Assembly (NCBI GenBank): GCA_017461585.1
Contig: JAFTYM010000030.1
Span: 1-60,365, forward strand
Direction: 5' to 3'
Length of the DNA stretch: 60,365 nucleotides
Source: Oscillospiraceae bacterium
GTDB lineage: Bacteria; Bacillota; Clostridia; Oscillospirales; Oscillospiraceae
Both the position numbers and the translations under genes were made by a program. Shown piece by piece: positions 49,709-60,365 of this stretch (the first letter of the stretch is position 1; each line of letters starts with the position of its first letter). The notes beneath the pieces were generated by a model. That model made no database searches. It worked only from the letters and a program-made list of their open reading frames with translations, and was not told where the DNA came from.

Positions 49709-50071
49709 GGGGCTGTACTGGTTTCGACGGGGGTGCGGAGGCTGGAATAGCGGGCGGAGGTGTCCGACCTCCTTAAACAGGGCATTCTTTATAAATTAAA
49801 GAACAACAACAATACTACACTGGTCGCCGCTTAAGGCTTGACCCGTCCTGCCCCGGAGTACCACGGCCGGGGGTCAGGGCGTCACACAGTGGTGAACGTG
49901 AGTACAGTAAGCTTTGCCTGTACCATGCACAATGAAGCTACCGAATCGGAACGCGTGACGGCTTGCGTCCGAGGCTGGGAATCGGCTTAACGCCGAAATA
50001 ACCGTCTGCGCCCGGAGAAGTTCTTGTTAAAGTGCTTTCGGACGGGGGTTCGATTCCCCCCAGCTCCACCA
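49709..50071 (+). ncRNA. ssrA: transfer-messenger RNA
   Basis: Rescues stalled ribosomes by acting first as alanyl-tRNA and then as mRNA. The 5' end GGGGCTG pairs with CAGCTCC at the 3' end, leaving ACCA; the third pair is G-U, the alanine identity element. GGTTTCGACGGGGG and GGGGGTTCGATTCCCCC form the D- and T-like parts. The tag frame reads from AAG at 49799 through AAC AAC AAC AAT ACT ACA CTG GTC GCC GCT TAA, giving KNNNNTTLVAA. The ending VAA fits a ClpXP-type degron. Its partner smpB lies 1.3 kb upstream. No clear promoter precedes it. Confidence 0.96.
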
Positions 50072-50075
50072 AATG

Positions 50076-50134
50076 AAATGTCTACAGTTTTTTAGACAGT
50101 TCTTTTCGGACTGTTAAAATACTGTAGACATTTT
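50076..50134 (+). terminator. long hairpin after ssrA, possible terminator
   Basis: AAATGTCTACAGT (50076-50088) and ACTGTAGACATTT (50122-50134) are a perfect 13-base inverted repeat enclosing a smaller ACAGT/ACTGT hairpin, followed by TCTTTTT. It could end ssrA. It also overlaps the candidate left end of the insertion sequence. Confidence 0.55.
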
Positions 50135-51336
50135 CTTTTTACTTGATGATAGCATCATAAAATTCTTTTTCTGCTTGGTTTGGTGTCAGAAAACCAAGAC
50201 GCTGATGGGGACGATAATCGTTGTAAAATTCAATATACTGTTTGACTGCCTCACAAAATTCATCTTCTGTCTTATAGAAATTACGACGAAAATCCTCCTT
50301 TTTGATTGATGCGAAAAACGACTCGGCAACAGCATTATCGTGTGGAGAACCCGGTGCCGAAAACGATTGCGTAACGCCAAGCTTTTTAAGGAGCCTGCAA
50401 AACTCAAAAGACGTGTACTGTGTTCCTTGGTCACTGTGAAAAATCAGAGCTGCTGGTTTTCCTCTTGTTTCAAATGCATTCAAGAATGTCTGAGTCACCA
50501 ATGCTGAATCAATATATTCTGATATGCCGTATGAAACTACTTTACGGGAGTACAAATCAATAACCACGCAAAGATACATGAAATCATGTCCAACCCGAGC
50601 ATATGTAATGTCGCTTACCCAAATTGCATCAGGAGCTGCTGATTGAAAATTTCTCTTCAGTTTGTTGGGATAATATTGATATTGTCGATCATTTGCAGAA
50701 TTCAGTTTAGGAATTGGACCTTGTGCTGACAAATTCATTTCCTTCATCAAACGACTAATTCGTCGTTCGCTCACAATGTATCCACTTTCTCGTAATTTGG
50801 CACGAATCCTACGACACCCAAAGCGTTGGCAACTATGTTCAAAAATTTCCTTAATGAGCGATCTTAGAATATCGTCTTGTAACTCGAGTTGCGTTTTTTT
50901 CGGCGCACGAAATTCATGATGATAAAAAGTTGATCGATTGACTTGCAGAACACGACACAAAGCATGGATACTATAAGTATCCTTTAAACGTTTTATCGCT
51001 GCTATTCGTACAGCCAACGGGGAGTTTGGACTGCACCCGCTTTCACGAAAGATATGATTTTCAATACGAAGCCGCTCAAGCTCTTTTTGTATTTTATATT
51101 TCTCAAGAGGTATCCCACCATTACTATCCGGTCTGCGCTGCTTAAGCCACAAAAACAGTGTGCTGCGAGCAATGCCGAATTTAGCACATAGTTCAACTGC
51201 TGAATTGCCGCTTTGATACTGCTTTACAATTTCCTCCTTAAAACTTTCTTCATAACGTTTTGCCATGTCCTTGCCCCTCCCAGATTTTCTTGATATACTT
51301 AAAGCAAGAACAATTATAAATAATATTATCTACAGT
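50122..51336 (-). mobile_element. IS3-family insertion sequence (approximate ends)
   Basis: A transposase gene flanked by candidate terminal repeats: ACTGTAGACA (50122) and, at the far side, TATCTACAGT ending at 51336. Beyond the first eight matching bases the ends are only weakly alike. A 3-bp AAT flanks both proposed ends (50119-50121 and 51337-51339). The boundaries are tentative. Confidence 0.5.
50139..51266 (-). CDS. IS3-family transposase (single-frame OrfAB)
   Basis: 375 residues. An N-terminal helix-turn-helix (YEESFKEEIVKQYQSGNSAVELCAKFGIARSTLFLW) and a leucine-rich segment, then an HTH_21-like region (SIHALCRVLQVNRSTFYHH), then the rve integrase domain with D219 (WVSDITY), D279 (HSDQGTQY) and E315 (AESFF); the D-to-E gap of 35 residues is typical. 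Most IS3 elements need a -1 frameshift to join OrfA and OrfB; here both are in one frame and look intact. The ATG follows GGAGGGG. Confidence 0.92.
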   Translation of the reverse strand: MAKRYEESFKEEIVKQYQSGNSAVELCAKFGIARSTLFLWLKQRRPDSNGGIPLEKYKIQKELERLRIENHIFRESGCSPNSPLAVRIAAIKRLKDTYSIHALCRVLQVNRSTFYHHEFRAPKKTQLELQDDILRSLIKEIFEHSCQRFGCRRIRAKLRESGYIVSERRISRLMKEMNLSAQGPIPKLNSANDRQYQYYPNKLKRNFQSAAPDAIWVSDITYARVGHDFMYLCVVIDLYSRKVVSYGISEYIDSALVTQTFLNAFETRGKPAALIFHSDQGTQYTSFEFCRLLKKLGVTQSFSAPGSPHDNAVAESFFASIKKEDFRRNFYKTEDEFCEAVKQYIEFYNDYRPHQRLGFLTPNQAEKEFYDAIIK

Positions 51337-51358
51337 AATAAATACGGAGAGGATACTT

Positions 51359-51778
51359 ATGAGCACTGAGATTGTTGTTGCAATTGTTGGCGCATTTGTG
51401 ACTATACTTACCGCCATTATCACAAATTACTTGTCCAAAAGAAATCAGTTGAAGTTCGAGGAGCGTAAACTCAAAGAAGAGTATTACACAAACTATGTTA
51501 AAGCTATGAGCAATAATGTTTTGATGAAAGATAATCATGTAGAGTTGGATGACGCGCAGAATCATCTTATACTTGTTGGAAGCGCAGATGTTGTTCGCAT
51601 TTTGATGCAGTTCCACGATAAGATAAAACCTTCTGCGCCTCCGTTAAGCGGAGCAGAACATGATAGGATACTCACAGAATTGATTAAGGCTATGCGTGCA
51701 GATTTATATGGAACAAATAAGATTAACTGTGGATATCCAATAATACATTTATCAGGGATACGACCTTACGGAGAATAA
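51359..51778 (+). CDS. small membrane-anchored protein of unknown function
   Basis: 139 residues. One membrane helix at the N-terminus (IVVAIVGAFVTILTAIITNYL), then a charged helix (KRNQLKFEERKLKEEYY) and a short soluble region. Small proteins of this shape occur near mobile elements and prophages, but I cannot assign a family. The start follows GGAGAGG by 6 bases. It lies just outside the proposed IS end, which may have supplied its promoter region. Confidence 0.55.
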   Translation: MSTEIVVAIVGAFVTILTAIITNYLSKRNQLKFEERKLKEEYYTNYVKAMSNNVLMKDNHVELDDAQNHLILVGSADVVRILMQFHDKIKPSAPPLSGAEHDRILTELIKAMRADLYGTNKINCGYPIIHLSGIRPYGE

Positions 51779-51952
51779 GAGTCGCTTTGATACTTGACCA
51801 GTACATTTTGAATTGGAGTTTCAATAATATTCAAACCGTTCATACCACTTTAGACACCGCGCCATTATAAACACCTTTTAATTATTCCTACACCTTTTAA
51901 CGAAAGGTCAAGGGGGTGTTCACTTTGTATCAAAGTAGGTCACCTTTTTCAT

Positions 51953-52008
51953 AACTGGACACCAATTTTGATACAATGCGTATCAGGATTGGTGTCCAGT
52001 TTCTTTTT
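51953..52008 (+). terminator. long two-part hairpin with T tail
   Basis: AACTGGACACCAAT (51953-51966) pairs perfectly with ATTGGTGTCCAGTT (51988-52001); inside, TGATAC pairs with GTATCA. TTCTTTTT follows. Confidence 0.75.
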
Positions 52009-52010
52009 GC

Positions 52011-52035
52011 AAACCCTTTGATAGCAAGGGTTTTT
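52011..52035 (+). terminator. short hairpin with T tail
   Basis: AAACCCTT (52011-52018) pairs with AAGGGTTT (52026-52033), then T. Confidence 0.5.
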
Positions 52036-52052
52036 GAATATCTTTTAACGAA

Positions 52053-52105
52053 AACAGGCTCAACGGCGGTGTAGTATCCATCGCCGTTGAGCCTGTTATG
52101 TTTTT
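52053..52105 (+). terminator. strong hairpin with T tail
   Basis: AACAGGCTCAACGGCG (52053-52068) pairs perfectly with CGCCGTTGAGCCTGTT (52082-52097), followed by ATGTTTTTT. Confidence 0.75.
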
Positions 52106-52162
52106 TCCTGTAAACCTTTTAACAAAAGGTCAAAGGGGTGTTCATTTTTTCAAGGGGGGTGT

Positions 52163-52723
52163 TCACTTTTCGCTTGCTGCCTTTGGCAAAGAGCGAAACA
52201 GGATCATACCAAACAGATGCAGTTTCTTCGGATTCCATTCAAAAGGTAATCCGCATTTCTCAGCCAACTTGGCAGCGTCCACACAGTAGGCTGACATACA
52301 ACTGATTCGAAGTTCCGGGAATGTGCAAGGCTTGTTTTCTTTCCTTTTGCAAGGCTCACAGAGCGTGCAGCCGCCATATCCAACTGCAAACACATTCATT
52401 CCTTCCCGAAGCAAAGCATCTCTCAGACGCCTTATAGAAGCGTTGTGGCTTGCTTTTGACGGCAGCACCTCTGGTGTTCCATAGCCCGGAACATCCCACT
52501 GTGACTGAAGCACCAGCGCCTGATCGGCAGACAGCAGTTTTTGATGCATTTGCTCTTGGGTGCCGCAATCAGGCGGGCAGGTAAAATTGGCTTCATAGTT
52601 TCCGCATCGGTTCTCCTCGCAGAATGTCAGATACTTCGCATTGACCGGGATCTCAGCGGGAGAAAGTGTCGCTGTGCGAAAACCCATATCCTCCGCCAAA
52701 TTCAAAATTTCCTGATTTGTCAT
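52163..52723 (-). CDS. DUF2284 metal-binding protein, copy 2
   Basis: 186 residues. Two cysteine clusters as in copy 1: CEENRCGNYEANFTCPPDCG near residue 32 and YGGCTLCEPCKRKENKPCTFP in the middle. Overall similarity to the protein at 35051-35581 is modest outside the clusters, so it is a distant paralogue rather than a recent copy. The role is unknown; cysteine spacing suggests Fe-S or zinc binding. The ribosome site is weak (GTGAG). Confidence 0.78.
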   Translation of the reverse strand: MTNQEILNLAEDMGFRTATLSPAEIPVNAKYLTFCEENRCGNYEANFTCPPDCGTQEQMHQKLLSADQALVLQSQWDVPGYGTPEVLPSKASHNASIRRLRDALLREGMNVFAVGYGGCTLCEPCKRKENKPCTFPELRISCMSAYCVDAAKLAEKCGLPFEWNPKKLHLFGMILFRSLPKAASEK

Positions 52724-52796: not shown

Positions 52797-53591
52797 TCAG
52801 CCATCTGTGGGAGCCTCTCGTGCGACGACCACAAATCTTCCATTTTCAACGTGATAGCTGCAAGTTACCAGTGTGATCAGGTTATCGCCGTATGTCGCCG
52901 TCACGCCGGTGTCATAGAGAGAATTTTCCTGATAATAGGTCATCGCTTCGTTGAAGTCCTCTTCTGTTTCCGCATCGATGAACTGGTAGAACTTGAAGCA
53001 GTCTTCACTCTTGTAATAAACGCGGTCATAGAACGCCGCGATGATCTCATAGGTGCGTGCTTCATACAGGGTTGCGAAGTGGATGGTGGGATGTGCTTCC
53101 CAGAAGCTTCTGTCGGTGTACTTCATCAGATCGGCAAACATGGAGCCGTTCTTCATGTTGTGGCCGTAGATGATCAGGTTGTCGCTTTCGGGATCCAGAG
53201 AACAGCCATCCTCAATAAAGGGGAGACCGCCCACATCGAAGTTGCCCTCAAAATCCGCATAGATGTATTTTTCGCCGTCATCCGGGGTATACATGACAGG
53301 ATAATTGATCATGGTGTCCGGGATCTGGATCCAGCCTGCGAGGTCGGAATTCTCTGCGTAGGGTTCCTGCAGGACTTCGAGGATCTGCGGTCCGGTTTCC
53401 TCGGGTTCTGTAGTTTCTTCCGGTTCTTCTTCCGTTTCAGGTTCGGCTTCCGTCGTTTCTTCAGTGGTTTCGACGATTTCCTCGGGGAGTTCAGCTTCGT
53501 CCTTTTGAGGCAGGAACCGGCTGGCAACTACGAGCAGCAGAATCACAGCAATACAGACGATCGCGATGATCAGTTTTGATTTCTTTTTCAT
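52797..53591 (-). CDS. class B sortase
   Basis: 264 residues. Membrane-anchored transpeptidase that links surface proteins to peptidoglycan. An N-terminal membrane helix at about 7-25, then an unusually acidic Glu/Thr/Pro linker (residues about 31-67), then the sortase domain with H144 (YGHNM), C244 (TLVTCSYH) and R252 (NGRFVVVAR). NSDLAGWIQIPDTMINYPV at the domain start is typical of SrtB. Its likely substrate is the cohesin protein encoded just upstream, which carries a C-terminal VPATG sorting signal. The ATG at 53591 has a loosely placed ribosome site. Confidence 0.93.
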   Translation of the reverse strand: MKKKSKLIIAIVCIAVILLLVVASRFLPQKDEAELPEEIVETTEETTEAEPETEEEPEETTEPEETGPQILEVLQEPYAENSDLAGWIQIPDTMINYPVMYTPDDGEKYIYADFEGNFDVGGLPFIEDGCSLDPESDNLIIYGHNMKNGSMFADLMKYTDRSFWEAHPTIHFATLYEARTYEIIAAFYDRVYYKSEDCFKFYQFIDAETEEDFNEAMTYYQENSLYDTGVTATYGDNLITLVTCSYHVENGRFVVVAREAPTDG

Positions 53592-53618
53592 TCCTGGAAA
53601 TTTCCTCCAAACAAGGAT

Positions 53619-53650
53619 GTAAGCGGTGGATGAACCCACCCACCGCTTAC
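53619..53650 (-). terminator. stem-loop between the cohesin and sortase genes
   Basis: GTAAGCGGTGG (53619-53629) pairs with CCACCGCTTAC (53640-53650). In the direction of transcription no T run follows, so it may only reduce read-through into the sortase gene. Confidence 0.5.
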
Positions 53651-53664
53651 GAAAAACTCTAAAA

Positions 53665-54624
53665 TTACTTAGCAGTCTTGCGCTTCAGGACATAAGCTGC
53701 AGCAGCGGTCATGGAGATGACAGCAACAAAGCCGAAGGTGACCATGGGAGTGATGTCGCCGGTAGCGGGAACATCGTCCAGATCTTCGTCCTTTTCGGTT
53801 ACGGTGCCGGCCTTCAGATCGCCGCAGACACAGTAGCCATTGTTTTCATACTCGTGTGCAGCAGTGACCTTGTCGCCGCAGACGGAGCAGACGCCGGTGT
53901 GGGTGCCGTCTTCGTTGACGGTGTAGGTGTAGCTGTGACCGGCAGCGGGGATCACTGCGGTTTCGACATCGCCGCAAGCGGAGCAGGTTCTGGTCTCTGC
54001 ACCAGCTTCGGTGCAGGTAGCAGCCTTGGTGACAACCCACTTGTCGTAGCTGTGGCCCAGAGCGTCGACGGAGTCTTCCTTGTAGCTGTCGCCGCAGGAA
54101 CAGGTGTAAGTGGTGTAGCCCTTTTCTTCACAGGTGGGTTCGGTGACAGTTGCGGTGTAGTCGTGGACGTGGGGAGCTTCAGGAACGGTGACGGAGCCAG
54201 AAGCAACGCCGACGCTAAGGGTAGTTACCGCATCAGCCATGGTGAAATTTTCAACTGCTGCACCGACAGTATAAGTACCTACAGGAGCGGTATCAGCAAC
54301 ATCAAAAGTTGCAGTAAAGAGAACGCCGTTGGCAGTATAATCGGCCATGTTCATAGCGGATGCTTTGGAGCCACCGCTGAAAAGGCCTTGGGTTGCAGCA
54401 CCCTGCTGAATGCTCTTTAAGGTCAGTACACTAGAGTCATAGGTAAGGCCAACCTGATAAGTTGCGAAGGTTGCCTCAGAAATCGAGAAGGAAACAGTAA
54501 CGGTTTCTCCTGCGGATGCAGTTTCGTTAGACACAGTCAGCGTGGCACCGGCAGCAAGGGCAGTGGTTGCCATACAGGAGACTAAAAGAACTGCAACAAT
54601 CAGAAGACTAATAAATTTTTTCAT
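53665..54624 (-). CDS. sortase-anchored cohesin-domain surface protein
   Basis: 319 residues. A signal peptide (1-24, ends ATTALAAG), then a cohesin-like domain at about 27-150 with the typical start GATLTVSNETASAGETVTVSFSIS and the strand FATYQVGLTYDSSVLTLKSI. Next come four short repeats with C-x(1,2)-C-G-D (TCSCGD, TCSACGD, VCSVCGD, YCVCGD), each preceded by GHSY- or HDY-like residues. The C-terminus is a cell-wall sorting signal: VPATGD at 285-290, a hydrophobic stretch and KRKTAK. It would be anchored by the neighbouring sortase and bind dockerin-bearing proteins such as the one encoded upstream. The start follows AGGAG. Confidence 0.88.
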   Translation of the reverse strand: MKKFISLLIVAVLLVSCMATTALAAGATLTVSNETASAGETVTVSFSISEATFATYQVGLTYDSSVLTLKSIQQGAATQGLFSGGSKASAMNMADYTANGVLFTATFDVADTAPVGTYTVGAAVENFTMADAVTTLSVGVASGSVTVPEAPHVHDYTATVTEPTCEEKGYTTYTCSCGDSYKEDSVDALGHSYDKWVVTKAATCTEAGAETRTCSACGDVETAVIPAAGHSYTYTVNEDGTHTGVCSVCGDKVTAAHEYENNGYCVCGDLKAGTVTEKDEDLDDVPATGDITPMVTFGFVAVISMTAAAAYVLKRKTAK

Positions 54625-54656
54625 AATTATAAGCTCCTAAAATTTAAATCAAGACA

Positions 54657-57600
54657 TTATTCTACGGGAAACTTTTCAAGAACACCAGAAGAATACTGAA
54701 GAACCAGCATTGCGTCAACGTTGTTGACTGTACCATCACCATTAACATCACAAACGCTCAGGTTCGGAGTGACGTTTGTAGTAACACCGGAGGAATACTG
54801 AAGAATCAGCATTGCGTCAACGTTGTTGACAATACCATCGCTGTTTGCATCGCCCAGCAGGTCAGGGTCTTCCTCGACGGAGTCATCGGTCTTGTGAACT
54901 ATGATCATACCGGGAGAGCTGACACCATCACCGGCTACACCGATGTAGTAGTCACCAGCCTCCATGTCGGAGAAGTCATAGGTAAACTTGCCGTCTGCAT
55001 CAGATTTGGTCAGATAGTGCCATTCGGTGACATTACTCTTCACGTCATCGGCTGCAATCCAATAAACATCGACATTGGGCATCGTGACATCGGAGCGGCC
55101 ACCCTGGCCGTCGGCAGTGGCACGGCGGACACTAAGCGTACCGGAATTCTGGGTAATTTCATCAACGATGGAGCCGTCCGCAGAAGCAACGTACTTAAAG
55201 CCAGCATTGGGATTCTGCCAGAAGCTCCAGTCGGTGTACATGGCCAGTTCCACAAAGTCGCCGTTGTTCAGGAGGATCCAGTCGGCAGTTGAGCCCCATC
55301 CCTCAGACATCAGGGGATATGCATGGTTGTGGTAATAGGTCAAGTTTTCGCTATGGCCCCAGAAATTAGTCATGTACAGGGAGGTCGCGGAGCCGGTGAT
55401 GTTCAGCGCTTCGGTACCCAGCAACCCCTCATTAAACAGATAACCCTTGCCTGCATCCGAGGCATCCACATCACAGTAGAACACTTCCGTGGCATAAATG
55501 AACAGATGCAGTACAGTAGGCTGCTTCAGCACCTCGCCGTCGGCGCCGTACTTGTAGAATTCCTCCAGGCCGTACAGCGCAAGATCGAAGTATTCCACAG
55601 TCACCGGCACGGAAGCCAGGACCGTTCCGGAGCCATTGAAGTATGTTCCGTCCTTGGAAACAGACAGGCGCACAGTCTTGCTGCCAAGCAGAGAGGGCTT
55701 CACCGCATCCAGGGCAGCCTTTGCAGCCTCAAGGGCTTCGGCAGCCCCGCTCAGGTTTTCCGCAGCCTCGATGGCAGCCACACCGTCTTCGTATGCATCC
55801 GTCAGATCGGCATATTCCTCCTCAGTGTAGTTGTCTTCTGCAAAGCTCTCGTAGTACTCCTTCAGTTCTGCCTTTGCGTTGGCCCGAACGGAGTCCATAT
55901 CGACACTACCCTCGGGCAGTTCATCAATGGCATACAGAGTTGCAAAATAGCCGGTGAACAAAGTCAGTCCATCCTGGGGCGTAATGAAGGACTTGATAGC
56001 GGTGCCGTACAGGGCAGTGCCGCCAGCACTGTAGTCATACATATCGCCGCCCACGTTGATGAGCTTCCACTCGCCCTTTTCGGTATCCACTGAGTAGAGG
56101 AAGCCACCGGTGGAGCCGTTCCAACCGTTCTGGCAGGAGATGCCGGCGCAAGCTGCGTAGATATTACCGTTAAAGTCCTCGCCCATGGTATAGCTGCCGT
56201 TGGTATGGTCGGTATCCACCGGCATCTTGGCAACACAATACATATCGGTGGTCCGTGCAGTGCGGACGCGGTAGATGTCACCGTTGGTCAGATAACTCTT
56301 GGAATAGTAATCCTGCCGGGCGTCGCCGGCCACATAGACATTGCCGTTCGGGGCGCCGGACAGGACATACAGCCTGCTGCTGGGATCCAGGGATTCATTG
56401 ATACCTTCGTTGGTGCTCCATGTGATCTGGCTCCAGGCGCCGCTGGCGTACTTCCACAGGCCCTGGTTGGAACCTGCAATGATGGTGTTATCGTCGATCT
56501 TCTCCAGGGAGTTCAAGGTGATGCCCTCTGCAACCTGAGATACAGCCCACTTTTCGCCGTTCCACAGGATCAGTCCGGCGTTGGAGAGAATAAACACTTG
56601 ATCACCCAGCACCACACCATCGGTCAGGCTGAGCCAGGAAGCTTCCAGACCTTCCACGTTGTATTCCATCTGCTGGGTACTCATGTTTCGCTCGGCCATG
56701 GCGCCGCCTTCCACAGCGACCCAGCGGTCTTCCTCATTGAGCGTATACAGGTGGATACCAGTGCGGCCGTTGGCGTCGCCCACAACGGTTTCCTCCATAA
56801 ACAGCAGCATATTGTCCTCGTCAGTGCCGCCGATGGCGTAGATGCCATTGTTGAACTGCCCCCACTCACCGCCGGTGTTGAAGTCGCCGCTCATTGCAGT
56901 GAATTGATTTTCAGCAGTAGTCTTTCTGGTGATACCACCGGGGCCGGCGGTGTAGATGGTGGTGATGCCGGTCACCTCATCGGTGATGGTTTCCACAGAC
57001 ATGATCAGGGCGCCCGCAGCGTTCTGGCCATCCGTGACAGGTTTGCCGCCGGCAGCCTCCCAACGCTTGATATTCAGGTCTTCCCCGCTCATCGCCTGGT
57101 CGATGCCGTCCAGGTCCACGGTGTATTCTCTGGTGTCGTTGAAGTTGATCTCAGCACCCAATTCGGTTGTCTTGGAGCCGCTCAGAGTAGCCACGATGAC
57201 TCCATTGGCAGCTTTCAGCTTGTCCATGTCGATACCAGCCACGACCTGAGTAGTGCCTTGATTCACCCAGGTGTTGGTGGAGGAGGCGATCTCCTCACCG
57301 TCCTTGTATTTCAGAGTAACGGTGAGGTTAGCCGAGCCGACGTTTGCGGCAACATGATAGCTGACACGGATGCCCAAAGGCTGGCCGTTGGTGGGTTCCA
57401 TCGTATTGGACAGCTGCGTAGCAGTGCTGCTGCTGGGAGCGCCGATGACGGGGCGCAGCTCCAGCGTCTCATCCAGCTTGATTTCCACAGGCACACAGGC
57501 AGCGGTAAAGACCACCTCGCCGGTATTGTTGGAGTCCACCTGGACTTCAATCTGGGGCTCGGACAGGCCGTTACTCCACTTGCTGAAGTTGTAACCCTGC

Positions 57601-60365
57601 AGGACATCCGTAATGTTCAGACGCCAGGTGTCTTTGCCGTTTTCCGTCTTGAGGTAGCGGGCCGTGACGGTGGCGGCACCCTCAGGCTCGGTCTTGACCG
57701 TCAGGGTATAGGCGGGCTCTGTGATCTCAGGAATCTCCACATTCGCGGTGTAGACATTCAGGCCCTTGTCGTATCCCATTTCCAGAATGACGATCTTGCC
57801 ATCGGCAGTGGTCAGAACAGCGGTGGGCTGGTAGTCCAGGATCTCGTAGCCACCGTCTTCCAAAAAGCCCTTGTTGCCGTAGATCATGTGATCGGCATCC
57901 TTGCCGAAAATATCATGACCGCTGTTAAACTGAACGTAGTTCACATCCCAGCTTTCGCCGTCAAAGCTGGCAGTACCGTAGCCAGTAGAGGACCAGCCGG
58001 ATTCAAAGTGCTTCACCCGGAAACCTGCCACATGCAGATTCTCCAGAGAAGTACCCTCCAGGTCGATGTCAGTGGGCCACAGATAGTACACTGTGCCGTT
58101 CTTCAGCTGCTGCGCCACCTTGTCATGGATCGTATGCGCGGTCCAGGTCTTGCCGTTGTTGTCAGAGGTATAGACATAGAAGCCATACTTCTCATAGTCC
58201 AGCTTCTTGGCCGCGACCACGGCGATCTCATCACCATTACCCCAGACGGTCTGAATACCGCTGCGGTCATCCATCTCGCCTTCCTCAGGCAGGGCAGGTA
58301 CGTCGAGTTTCTCCCACTGGCCGTCCACCAGCTTGTGGACAGTGCTGGTGGTCATGGCGAAGGTCTGGCCGTTGCTGGCGATCAGAGCACCTACATAGCC
58401 GCCGTCCAGCTCAGTTATGGTACTCTTCTCCACGTCATAGCACAGCACGGTGCGCTCTGCGGAGCCGTCCTCCTGCCTCTGCATGGCAGCCAGATACAGC
58501 ACATCACCGGAGGCGCCAGACAGGCTGGTAACACCGAAGAAGCCGTCGCCGGTAATGTCAGAATAGGTGTCCACCGTATTCTCCACCGCTTCATCATACT
58601 TGTTGGTGCGGGTGTACTGGGTGTTCCAGCGGGTATGCTCGGACACCAGGCCTCGGGTCATATCCAGGGTGTACAGGATCCAGCTCTCATCGTACTTATA
58701 GACGAAGTGCTGGCCCACATAGGTACCGTCGCCAAGATTCTGATTGTCAGTCATCACCTGGTTGCGGCGCAGGATATACACGGTGTCCTCGCCGTTGTAC
58801 CAGTAATAGTCATTAGCGCCATTGTCACCCTCCAGCACCAGGGTCTCGTCAGTGTAGAAGGTGTCATAGAAATAACCGGACTGTTCAGGGATGGTACAGT
58901 CGAACTCATATGTCTCGCCGGCATAGGTGACAGTAAGGGCTGCGTCCTGAGCCTGGTCGGAGATCTCACCGATCAGGTTGTACATACTGAACTTCAAATC
59001 CTCGCCGTCCTGCGTCATGCCCTTAGTGTTGACAAAGGCATCCTCTCCCTCCACAGTGAGCGTGAACTCGAAGCCGTATCGATCGATGGGCAGATATGTA
59101 AATTCCTGATTCAGTGTAAGCGTGATGGAGGTGTTGGTCACCTGGGCACCCACGATTTTCAGGGAGTCGGCGCTCTCCACCTCGGGATAGACGCCGTTGG
59201 CCTCAAAGGTCAGCATGGGCAGGCGGCCCTCTGCATCAACATAGGCGTCGCCCAACTGCGCTGCAGTCAGCGTGGCAACCGCACCGTTGGTCACCTCTCC
59301 ATAGGCCACCATACCGGCGTTGATTGTCCCGGTCTGGATGAAGTAGCTGTTTTCGATTCCTTCACCCTCCGTTTTGGCAATGCCCCTGGGGCTATAGTAA
59401 TCGCCGCTGGCTGCCGCGCCGGAGATCAGCGCACCGCCGTTGTAGCAGTTGACGATGCGGCCGTCGTTGGTGTAGGCAATGCCGCCCATTTCACAGCCAT
59501 CGGAACCCAGGCTGTCCAGACTGCCCAGGTTATAGCAGTTCAGCAGCAGTGCGCCATTGCCCACATACGAGGCGATGCCGGCCATGGTGGCAGACCAGCC
59601 CTGCCGGACCGTATTGGTGATCGCACCGTAGTTGGCGCAGTTGACGATACTGCCGTAGTTACTGTTCACGAGACCGCCAACAAAGCTGTAGCCGTTCAGA
59701 TCGGCCTTGTTGACGCAGTTGGCGATAATACCATCGTTTCGATAAGCAAAAGAACCCATCCAGCGGCCGCTGATGGAGCCGCTCTCAATGGTCAGGTTCT
59801 TCACGGTACCGGTGGATTTGATCTGGTAGAACAAGCCGCCGTAACCTTCGGAGCCGCCGTCAATGACCAGATCGATCAGCTTCTTGCCATTGCCGTCAAA
59901 GGTACCGCCGAAATAGCGGGAATCAACGCTGCCGGGAAGTGTAATGCCTTCGAGGTCGATGTCAGCGGTCAGCGTCACTGTCTTGCCGGTAAAGTCGTCC
60001 TGCAGGCCAGCCTCGTTGGAGCCGTTCAGCAGGGACATGAAGCCGATGAATTCGTCGGCAGTATCCAGTTCGAACGAGGTGGCATCGGCGCTGTACCAAC
60101 TCACGTCCAGTTCCACCTCCTGGTCAATGACCTTCAAAACAGGTACAGTTTCACCACTCAGGTAAATCGTAGCATCATTGTACACATCTTCAATAAAGGT
60201 GAAACTGTATTTGTTTGGAACCTGTACATCCTCTGTGAAGGTCGTGCCGTCCAGCTCAAACACCGTGTCGGTCGGAGTAACCATCAGAACGATGTAGGGA
60301 ATAGTGGTACTGTCGGACTTCTGCTGCACAGTGACAGTATTGTTTTGGCCGACAATCAGACCCAG
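54657..60365 (-). CDS. giant dockerin-bearing surface protein (5' end outside the window)
   Basis: At least 1,902 residues; the frame stays open to the window edge, so the start and any signal peptide are missing. Visible order: GLUG-like right-handed beta repeats (about nt 59950-59340, repeating GGLV/I-N-xxGxIxNCxN), a beta-propeller-like region, an InlB-type repeat near nt 57715 (YTLTVKTEPEGAATVTARYL), a second propeller-like region, a FIVAR-like three-helix segment (nt about 55905-55680), a DUF4430-like domain (LHLFIYATEVFYCDV ... LLGTEALNI), and a C-terminal type I dockerin of two calcium-binding repeats (GDANSDGIVNNVDAMLILQY and CDVNGDGTVNNVDAMLVLQY). No catalytic domain is recognised. 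The dockerin would bind the cohesin protein next door. Confidence 0.88.
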   Translation of the reverse strand: MGLIVGQNNTVTVQQKSDSTTIPYIVLMVTPTDTVFELDGTTFTEDVQVPNKYSFTFIEDVYNDATIYLSGETVPVLKVIDQEVELDVSWYSADATSFELDTADEFIGFMSLLNGSNEAGLQDDFTGKTVTLTADIDLEGITLPGSVDSRYFGGTFDGNGKKLIDLVIDGGSEGYGGLFYQIKSTGTVKNLTIESGSISGRWMGSFAYRNDGIIANCVNKADLNGYSFVGGLVNSNYGSIVNCANYGAITNTVRQGWSATMAGIASYVGNGALLLNCYNLGSLDSLGSDGCEMGGIAYTNDGRIVNCYNGGALISGAAASGDYYSPRGIAKTEGEGIENSYFIQTGTINAGMVAYGEVTNGAVATLTAAQLGDAYVDAEGRLPMLTFEANGVYPEVESADSLKIVGAQVTNTSITLTLNQEFTYLPIDRYGFEFTLTVEGEDAFVNTKGMTQDGEDLKFSMYNLIGEISDQAQDAALTVTYAGETYEFDCTIPEQSGYFYDTFYTDETLVLEGDNGANDYYWYNGEDTVYILRRNQVMTDNQNLGDGTYVGQHFVYKYDESWILYTLDMTRGLVSEHTRWNTQYTRTNKYDEAVENTVDTYSDITGDGFFGVTSLSGASGDVLYLAAMQRQEDGSAERTVLCYDVEKSTITELDGGYVGALIASNGQTFAMTTSTVHKLVDGQWEKLDVPALPEEGEMDDRSGIQTVWGNGDEIAVVAAKKLDYEKYGFYVYTSDNNGKTWTAHTIHDKVAQQLKNGTVYYLWPTDIDLEGTSLENLHVAGFRVKHFESGWSSTGYGTASFDGESWDVNYVQFNSGHDIFGKDADHMIYGNKGFLEDGGYEILDYQPTAVLTTADGKIVILEMGYDKGLNVYTANVEIPEITEPAYTLTVKTEPEGAATVTARYLKTENGKDTWRLNITDVLQGYNFSKWSNGLSEPQIEVQVDSNNTGEVVFTAACVPVEIKLDETLELRPVIGAPSSSTATQLSNTMEPTNGQPLGIRVSYHVAANVGSANLTVTLKYKDGEEIASSTNTWVNQGTTQVVAGIDMDKLKAANGVIVATLSGSKTTELGAEINFNDTREYTVDLDGIDQAMSGEDLNIKRWEAAGGKPVTDGQNAAGALIMSVETITDEVTGITTIYTAGPGGITRKTTAENQFTAMSGDFNTGGEWGQFNNGIYAIGGTDEDNMLLFMEETVVGDANGRTGIHLYTLNEEDRWVAVEGGAMAERNMSTQQMEYNVEGLEASWLSLTDGVVLGDQVFILSNAGLILWNGEKWAVSQVAEGITLNSLEKIDDNTIIAGSNQGLWKYASGAWSQITWSTNEGINESLDPSSRLYVLSGAPNGNVYVAGDARQDYYSKSYLTNGDIYRVRTARTTDMYCVAKMPVDTDHTNGSYTMGEDFNGNIYAACAGISCQNGWNGSTGGFLYSVDTEKGEWKLINVGGDMYDYSAGGTALYGTAIKSFITPQDGLTLFTGYFATLYAIDELPEGSVDMDSVRANAKAELKEYYESFAEDNYTEEEYADLTDAYEDGVAAIEAAENLSGAAEALEAAKAALDAVKPSLLGSKTVRLSVSKDGTYFNGSGTVLASVPVTVEYFDLALYGLEEFYKYGADGEVLKQPTVLHLFIYATEVFYCDVDASDAGKGYLFNEGLLGTEALNITGSATSLYMTNFWGHSENLTYYHNHAYPLMSEGWGSTADWILLNNGDFVELAMYTDWSFWQNPNAGFKYVASADGSIVDEITQNSGTLSVRRATADGQGGRSDVTMPNVDVYWIAADDVKSNVTEWHYLTKSDADGKFTYDFSDMEAGDYYIGVAGDGVSSPGMIIVHKTDDSVEEDPDLLGDANSDGIVNNVDAMLILQYSSGVTTNVTPNLSVCDVNGDGTVNNVDAMLVLQYSSGVLEKFPVE

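Follow-up and report, generated by a model that had tools for sequence, protein, structure and literature searches.

A giant dockerin protein, a single-cohesin anchor protein and a class B sortase encoded side by side: a probable surface-display operon in an Oscillospiraceae bacterium

Genes and domains of the cassette

We analysed a stretch of 60,365 nucleotides (hereafter the window), which is the entire contig C14 of an assembly of 2.07 Mb in 54 contigs that is 79% complete. The minus strand of the window encodes between positions 52797 and 60365, in order of transcription, a giant dockerin protein, a cohesin protein and a class B sortase (Table 1). Direct reading of the window bore out the order and the coordinates of these three adjacent genes, as reported in the first-pass annotation. 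The genes of the giant and of the cohesin protein are 32 bp apart, the latter ends 73 bp before the start codon of the sortase (ATG 53591), and by eye a ribosome-binding site precedes each of the two downstream genes. The three genes most likely belong together.

Table 1. Features of the cassette; positions are those of the window.
Feature	Position	Strand	Evidence and remarks
Giant dockerin protein, predicted to be secreted	54657..60365	-	Minimum length 1902 aa; truncated at its 5' end by the contig boundary
GLUG-like repeat region (residues 98-354)	59304..60074	-	Alignment with the paralogue on contig C36; no direct Pfam match
Module X (residues 1564-1820)	54906..55676	-	Alignment, sequence searches; no family assigned
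Type I dockerin, two F-hand repeats	54693..54857	-	PF00404, 40.2 bits (cut-off 22.9); residues 1837-1891 of the open frame
Anchor protein of 319 aa with one cohesin and a signal peptide	53665..54624	-	Direct reading, Pfam
Cohesin domain	54184..54543	-	PF00963, 33.6 bits (cut-off 24.1); residues 28-147
Stalk of CxxC/GHxY repeats	53815..54171	-	Direct reading; repeats of this type also present in other surface proteins
Sorting signal VPATGD, hydrophobic stretch, KRK tail	53668..53772	-	Motif reading only
Hairpin between anchor and sortase genes, 14 bp stem, 4-nt loop	53619..53650	-	Folding, shuffles, genome search
Class B sortase, 264 aa	52797..53591	-	Pfam, NCBIfam, catalytic residues, GGAGG upstream of the ATG

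The contig ends within the reading frame of the giant, which therefore lacks its start and signal peptide here. Its earlier description as a dockerin protein holds for the C-terminus, a type I dockerin. Both calcium-binding F-hand repeats have D, N, D, N and D at loop positions 1, 3, 5, 9 and 12, and both carry the recognition residues NVMQYG. A sequence search of the PDB with the giant gave 21 matches at E ≤ 1, of which 20 fell on the dockerin end (best E 4.2e-6, a dockerin), the remaining one being a ribosomal protein (E 0.41).

Beyond the dockerin and the GLUG-like region, Pfam and NCBIfam gave the giant no domain above cut-off. The adhesion-type modules announced earlier (GLUG, InlB, FIVAR) had no Pfam match in the whole protein (E ≤ 1) or in its four pieces (E ≤ 5), and the same is true of bacterial-repeat domains related to InlB. 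GLUG was recovered indirectly, since residues 98-354 align with a paralogue encoded on contig C36 (29% identity, E 1.5e-16) that scores 43.8 bits with the Pfam Glug profile, whereas InlB and FIVAR remained without any profile match. Module X also occurs in the C36 giant and in five other genomes of the 300 searched; in a sixth genome the match lies only just before it. By eye, the giant seems to contain a bacterial-repeat domain, a helix bundle resembling FIVAR and a pair of beta-propellers; an alignment of one propeller-like half with the other failed, and a BNR/Asp-box match scored 14.4 bits, under the cut-off of 27. Two NCBIfam matches to malate dehydrogenase (16.6 and 12.9 bits) are far below their cut-offs (470.4 and 345.65) and we did not credit them. 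In agreement with the earlier claim that catalytic modules are lacking, neither Pfam nor NCBIfam gave a catalytic domain above cut-off in the whole protein or its pieces. Pfam gave no known binding domain either. The cargo is probably non-catalytic. Rather than being an enzyme, it would most likely bind a ligand or act in adhesion, and it may be the adhesin or sensor suggested in the first-pass annotation.

The second protein had been described as a cohesin protein with a VPATGD sorting signal, and both parts were recovered, the former by a significant Pfam match between 53665 and 54624, the latter by direct reading. In having at least one cohesin and, by motif only, a sorting signal, it shares two features with the NonSLH-anchoring scaffoldins (ScaE type). 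In a PDB search, the cohesin matched scaffoldin adaptor protein B with an E-value no better than 0.42. The stalk region has similarity to an IgA protease chain (PDB 9qa6, E 1.7e-4), in the C-terminal portion of that chain, and the CxxC/GHxY repeats of the stalk are frequent in proteins of the relatives.

The assignment of the third protein to the class B sortases, also made in the first-pass annotation, was confirmed by several lines of evidence. It matches the Pfam sortase profile (PF04203, 44.9 bits, cut-off 26.6) and the NCBIfam class B profile TIGR03064 (E 1e-38), though with 133 bits it lies about 20 bits under the equivalog cut-off of the latter (153.75). A profile built from six aligned sortases, in all of which the catalytic His, Cys and Arg are invariant, matched 15 distinct PDB sequences at E ≤ 0.001 (best E 8.3e-43). 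Twelve of these are named sortase B, and 'NPQTN specific sortase B' is the label of one sequence among the matches. An alternative start at GTG 53639 is unlikely, as it sits inside the hairpin, and we preferred ATG 53591. Class B sortases have a textbook role in iron uptake. The proposed substrate of the window sortase, the VPATGD cohesin protein, sets it apart from them, as does the lower TIGR03064 score.

Cohesins, dockerins and sortases in the same genome and in relatives

The genome encodes five dockerins (E ≤ 0.001): the one of the window giant, two on contig C16 (a 242-aa cohesin-dockerin adaptor and a 1533-aa protein), one in a 3393-aa giant on C36 and one in a 694-aa SH3/dockerin protein on C3. 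At the same threshold there are two Pfam cohesins, one each in the window anchor protein and the C16 adaptor. The earlier formula of one cohesin and one dockerin therefore describes the locus, but not the genome, of which 79% is assembled. We saw no scaffoldin with tandem cohesins in this assembly, i.e., no several-cohesin protein of the kind by which a cellulosome is defined. None of the five dockerin proteins had a catalytic match above cut-off. The C3 protein has a glucosaminidase match of 18.1 bits (cut-off 30.2), and the C36 giant carries the N-terminal beta-sheet domain of hyaluronate lyases, an accessory part (32.7 bits, cut-off 27).

We compared the dockerins at positions 10, 11, 14, 18, 19 and 22, which we take, from the type I dockerin literature, to be the recognition sites. 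They fall into four types: the window dockerin on C14 stands alone, those of the C36 giant and the C16 adaptor share AVAKYN, the 1533-aa protein of C16 has REQDYQ/SNVQFG and the C3 protein has SGINHN/SGINHG. The C36 giant (L009 410-10591; GLUG, Big_2) and the C16 adaptor (L008 451-1179), with their common residues, perhaps form another display system whose parts the assembly has separated. After the dockerin gene on C3 comes one for a 509-aa protein that has no Pfam cohesin match at E ≤ 5 and an N-terminus that is cohesin-like by profile comparison (score 33.7, reached by none of 60 shuffles). This SH3/dockerin protein beside a cohesin-like membrane protein (L010 5669-9300) makes a further neighbour pair.

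There are three Pfam sortases in the genome, and those of C12 and C14 adjoin a protein with a P-x-T-G-D sorting signal; on C12 (L269 6864-12471) the sortase gene directly precedes the gene for a 1599-aa NPKTGD protein. Near-identical TPDTGDN tails occur at the starts of C13 and C16, with no sortase nearby in the stretch read. A cluster on C16 (L008 1311-14841) encodes a PQQ-repeat dockerin protein together with two proteins whose matches stay below cut-off, one DUF4430-like (18.2 bits) and the other a lipoprotein similar to prenyltransferase toroids. The pairing may be reminiscent of transcobalamin.

A search of 60 genomes with the cohesin protein was swamped by its CxxC stalk, and we therefore used the Pfam cohesin model, mapping cohesins and dockerins at E ≤ 0.001 in the genome itself and 59 relatives. 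This gave 61 cohesin ORFs in 25 genomes, some of them under the Pfam cut-off; eight themselves carry a dockerin. For at least 16 of the 61, spread over 14 genomes, a dockerin ORF lies no more than 3 kb away on the same strand, where random placement, which ignores operon structure, expects 1.41; the dockerin side of this count consists of 44 matches among those with the best E-values, almost none from dockerin-rich genomes, and one of the 16 cohesins (G019) scores 20 bits, which is below the cut-off. When only genomes with up to eight dockerins are considered, that of the window among them, the count is at least 16 of 39 against 0.24 expected. The 16 neighbouring cohesin ORFs differ in their anchors: SLH repeats in three (G011, G043, G019; Pfam), a transmembrane tail by eye in three (G049, G050, G004) and a sorting signal in one, the window's own. 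The other nine have no anchor by eye, one of them being cut by a contig end. In G008 (L080 1508-8983), a 2159-aa dockerin protein directly precedes an NPTTGD cohesin-like protein (16.7 bits, below cut-off). This dockerin protein looks by eye like a subtilisin-type protease. Hence, neighbour pairs need not be non-catalytic.

The sortase had matches in 147 of 300 genomes of the family, and the best outside its own genome (51% identical) is in G114, which belongs to another genus. We compared 20 loci from the best 20 other genomes, one each, several of them cut by contig ends. Our own HMMs found a dockerin protein near the sortase in one of these, that of G114, where the order is a 1883-aa dockerin protein, a 294-aa VPPTGD protein and the sortase. 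The two giants align solely over the dockerin (38 of 76 residues identical), which in G114 has the recognition residues LDTQYG, and the cargo is otherwise unrelated. A local alignment of the middle proteins gives 26% identity. The gene order thus recurs in a relative, and the window protein has a significant cohesin match, so that neither of these two conditions set in the first-pass annotation refuted its reading. The G114 counterpart of the cohesin, however, misses the Pfam model, and our own cohesin HMM did not match it either. With filters off it has a cohesin score of 8.2 bits, exceeded in two of 500 shuffles. Only profile-profile comparison sets it apart, with an hhalign score of 23.25 over 101 columns, a value reached by none of 60 shuffles and by none of 85 control windows from six other surface proteins. 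These comparisons favour, on weaker evidence than a Pfam match, a cohesin in the G114 protein too. The contig of the G114 cassette also encodes four dockerin proteins in a row (G114:C3:27000-44000, L132), three of them with cohesins by our own HMMs, and module X matches the first of the four.

A scan of GTDB contigs with the sortase profile found at least 589 relatives, of which we kept 80 loci. Our own HMMs at relaxed thresholds matched a cohesin or dockerin in five of the 80, many flanks being truncated. L159 (Lachnospiraceae, goat rumen) encodes a cohesin-dockerin protein, a cohesin protein that ends in VPKTGDR without a membrane stretch, and a sortase. L189 (Pseudoflavonifractor phocaeensis) has a dockerin protein, an SLH-cohesin, a VPKTGD protein and a sortase, L192 has a dockerin protein and an IPQTGD cohesin facing the sortase gene, and L233 has an SPKTGD cohesin, a sortase and a dockerin protein. 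Pfam confirmed the cohesin in these four loci. In L172 (Lachnospiraceae) a dockerin protein is followed by a 242-aa APNTGD protein and a sortase; its cohesin is doubtful (hhalign 17.0, with one of 85 controls as high).

In a tree of 101 sortases, those of the window, G114 and L159 belong to a clade of nine with support 100/97. For the seven rows labelled as cassettes, two of them with a doubtful cohesin (G114, L172), six changes are required on this tree, at least five of which are forced by supported branches, and their labels are not clearly clustered (59 of 500 shuffles gave a value as low). A single origin of the link between sortase and cohesin is therefore unsupported. In the same clade, the sortases of L156, L157 and L160 adjoin a cohesin-free protein that has a CxxC stalk and a similar tail. 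Hence, the cohesin head looks exchangeable, and by descent the sortase is not specific to cohesins.

The hairpin between anchor and sortase genes

The hairpin that separates the anchor gene from the sortase gene has a predicted energy of -30.5 kcal/mol (z -5.1), and the G114 cassette has one in the same place (-26.3 kcal/mol, z -5.2); none of 200 shuffles was as good in either case. The stem TAAGCGGTGG...CCACCGCTTA, near-identical in both, was found in two of 400 genomes of the family, those of the window and G114, at one place in each, which rules out a dispersed repeat. One arm of it is the longest exact word (13 nt) common to the two operon regions. L156, L157 and L160 have a hairpin of other sequence at the corresponding place. 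Together with L136 (8905-8968) they show strong hairpins between sortase-substrate and sortase genes.

In 35 of 93 sortase loci with an upstream ORF, this ORF is followed by a hairpin whose stem is 11 or longer. The proportion is 16 of 23 when the ORF carries a sorting-like motif, by a crude test that also counts PAAGE and PASGN, and 19 of 70 when it does not. The former differs from control regions (202 of 812; Fisher p 1.2e-5), in a comparison where the loci are not independent and the controls include likely terminators. In the cip-cel operon of Clostridium cellulolyticum, reporter tests showed that SRPS stem-loops raise the upstream transcript, as described in the available text of PMC4423207. 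The window hairpin resembles these in being a strong hairpin 3' of a cohesin-protein gene within an operon, and differs from them in that it is a predicted structure. By analogy, its likely role would be to raise the anchor transcript over that of the sortase.

Interpretation and known systems

We propose that the cassette is probably a private plug-and-socket surface-display operon and not a degradative cellulosome. The giant would be secreted, and its C-terminal dockerin would plug, probably in a calcium-dependent manner, into the single cohesin of the neighbouring protein. The neighbouring sortase would cut this anchor protein at VPATGD and join it to the cell wall, the stalk would hold the socket away from the wall, and a non-covalent clip would thereby keep the giant at the wall. 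The hairpin could provide many sockets per sortase, and one cargo may be replaced by another with socket and sortase retained. The proposal of a self-contained unit that is not degradative, made in the first-pass annotation, is in part upheld: the order in G114, an adjacency far above chance and recognition residues of its own argue for a self-contained unit of anchor, plug and sortase, and the giant lacks a catalytic match above cut-off. The C12 sortase, which likewise adjoins a sorting-signal protein, is also in keeping with a display operon. A point against private pairing is that the Pfam cohesin of C16 could also take the window dockerin. The doubtful cohesin of G114, the single occurrence of the order among the 20 loci and the cohesin-free neighbours of related sortases (L156, L157, L160) likewise weigh against the proposal.

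The cassette might instead be one arm of a small degradative complex, cellulosome-like or mucinolysome-like, in which the giant docks together with enzymes encoded elsewhere in the genome. Four further dockerins and a cohesin-dockerin adaptor are indeed present, the C3 and C36 proteins have the glucosaminidase and hyaluronate-lyase matches described above, and Limousia and R. bromii are described as anchoring degradative complexes by cohesins with sortase signals, in the available text of PMC12997984 and PMC5814915. The protease-like cargo in G008 slightly weakens the display-operon reading and slightly raises the degradative one. Such a complex is nevertheless quite unlikely, given two Pfam cohesins in two proteins and no tandem-cohesin scaffoldin in the 79% of the genome assembled, a giant without catalytic match above cut-off, and a window dockerin whose recognition residues are unlike those of the other four. 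Alternatively, the modules may be real and the pairing shared, the giant binding the C16 adaptor or cohesins in the unsequenced part of the genome, with a neighbourhood that is merely historical. The C36 giant and the C16 adaptor, with the same recognition residues on different contigs, suggest that such cross-contig pools may exist, but the excess of adjacency in the relatives and the order kept in G114 with a different cargo make a shared pool improbable.

Another reading concerns the origin of the cassette, which would be a recently acquired island beside ssrA carrying a surface system that may differ in function from the host's other cohesin systems. The cassette lies past a tmRNA gene (49709-50071, Rfam 152 bits), where ARAGORN made no tmRNA call, and a transposase with integrase-core domains (50139-51266) lies between the two. 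The GC content of 52797-60365 is 0.543, against 0.455 before the end of ssrA, and the GC3 of the giant (0.70) and sortase (0.61) is outside the 0.33-0.58 of 35 window ORFs (≥ 200 aa), but that of the cohesin gene (0.56) is inside. The last 24 nt of ssrA recur exactly on C29 (G000:C29:57180-57203), and the sortase has no match better than E 4.8e-18 in the four other genomes of the genus. Against this, no integrase was seen by eye, no island gene was recognised beside the C29 copy, and the G114 cassette (GC 0.494) is like its 19-kb locus (0.492), another stretch of that contig reaching 0.540. The GC shift and the ssrA repeat hint at acquisition, yet a recent island is rather doubtful and, with no element boundary or integrase recognised, not proven; it is compatible with a private display operon, not opposed to it. 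The region 49709-52700, where GC rises past 52 kb, is a possible insertion hotspot, and 51889-52169, between the transposase and DUF2284 genes, contains direct repeats (38 nt, 222 apart) and several hairpins. The sequence downstream of ssrA differs between G001 and G002, the two relatives whose flanks are readable there.

More broadly, there may exist outside cellulosomes a class of private, orthogonal displays, each giant having a neighbouring socket with an exchangeable anchor (SLH repeats, transmembrane tail, or sorting signal with a class B sortase), the sortase version having arisen several times, the cargo being swapped as a unit and a conserved RNA hairpin setting the ratio of sockets to sortase. 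This generalisation is plausible, if tentative. Private pairs would mean that one cell bears several orthogonal display clips instead of one enzyme pool, and dockerin counts would have to be reread accordingly. They would also offer orthogonal cohesin-dockerin pairs ready for use, together with a sortase to match. With two domains, one peptide and one hairpin to examine, the cassette is of a size that can be tested whole. Peer et al. reportedly described non-cellulosomal modules in 2009. Among the papers searched, none combines dockerin, cohesin and 'class B sortase'; such pairs may have been described earlier.

A non-catalytic dockerin protein held on a sortase-anchored cohesin is already known in kind from CttA and ScaE of Ruminococcus flavefaciens, where a cohesin protein bearing a sortase signal at its C-terminus holds a substrate-binding, non-catalytic dockerin protein (PMC4081043, available text). 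Their genes are described as the last two of the sca cluster (PMC4081043, PMC2721979). The cassette of the window would work in a similar manner outside a cellulosome, with a cargo that is probably non-catalytic. CttA has two CBMs (PMC4081043) and an X-module dockerin (PMC7456326, available text), whereas the window cargo has no recognised binding module. CttA and ScaE belong to a complete cellulosome that also includes ScaA, ScaB and ScaC, and no multi-cohesin scaffoldin was found in the genome of the window. A class B sortase gene follows the anchor gene in the window. The word 'sortase' does not occur in the available text of PMC2721979. A cohesin with a cell-wall sorting signal is likewise described, in the available parts of these sources, for the 'NonSLH-anchoring' scaffoldins (PMC11557425), for cSca5 of Limousia (PMC12997984) and for Sca2 and Sca5 of R. 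bromii (PMC5814915). The proteins of Limousia and R. bromii function in multi-enzyme complexes, whereas we propose for the window a one-to-one pair of neighbours.
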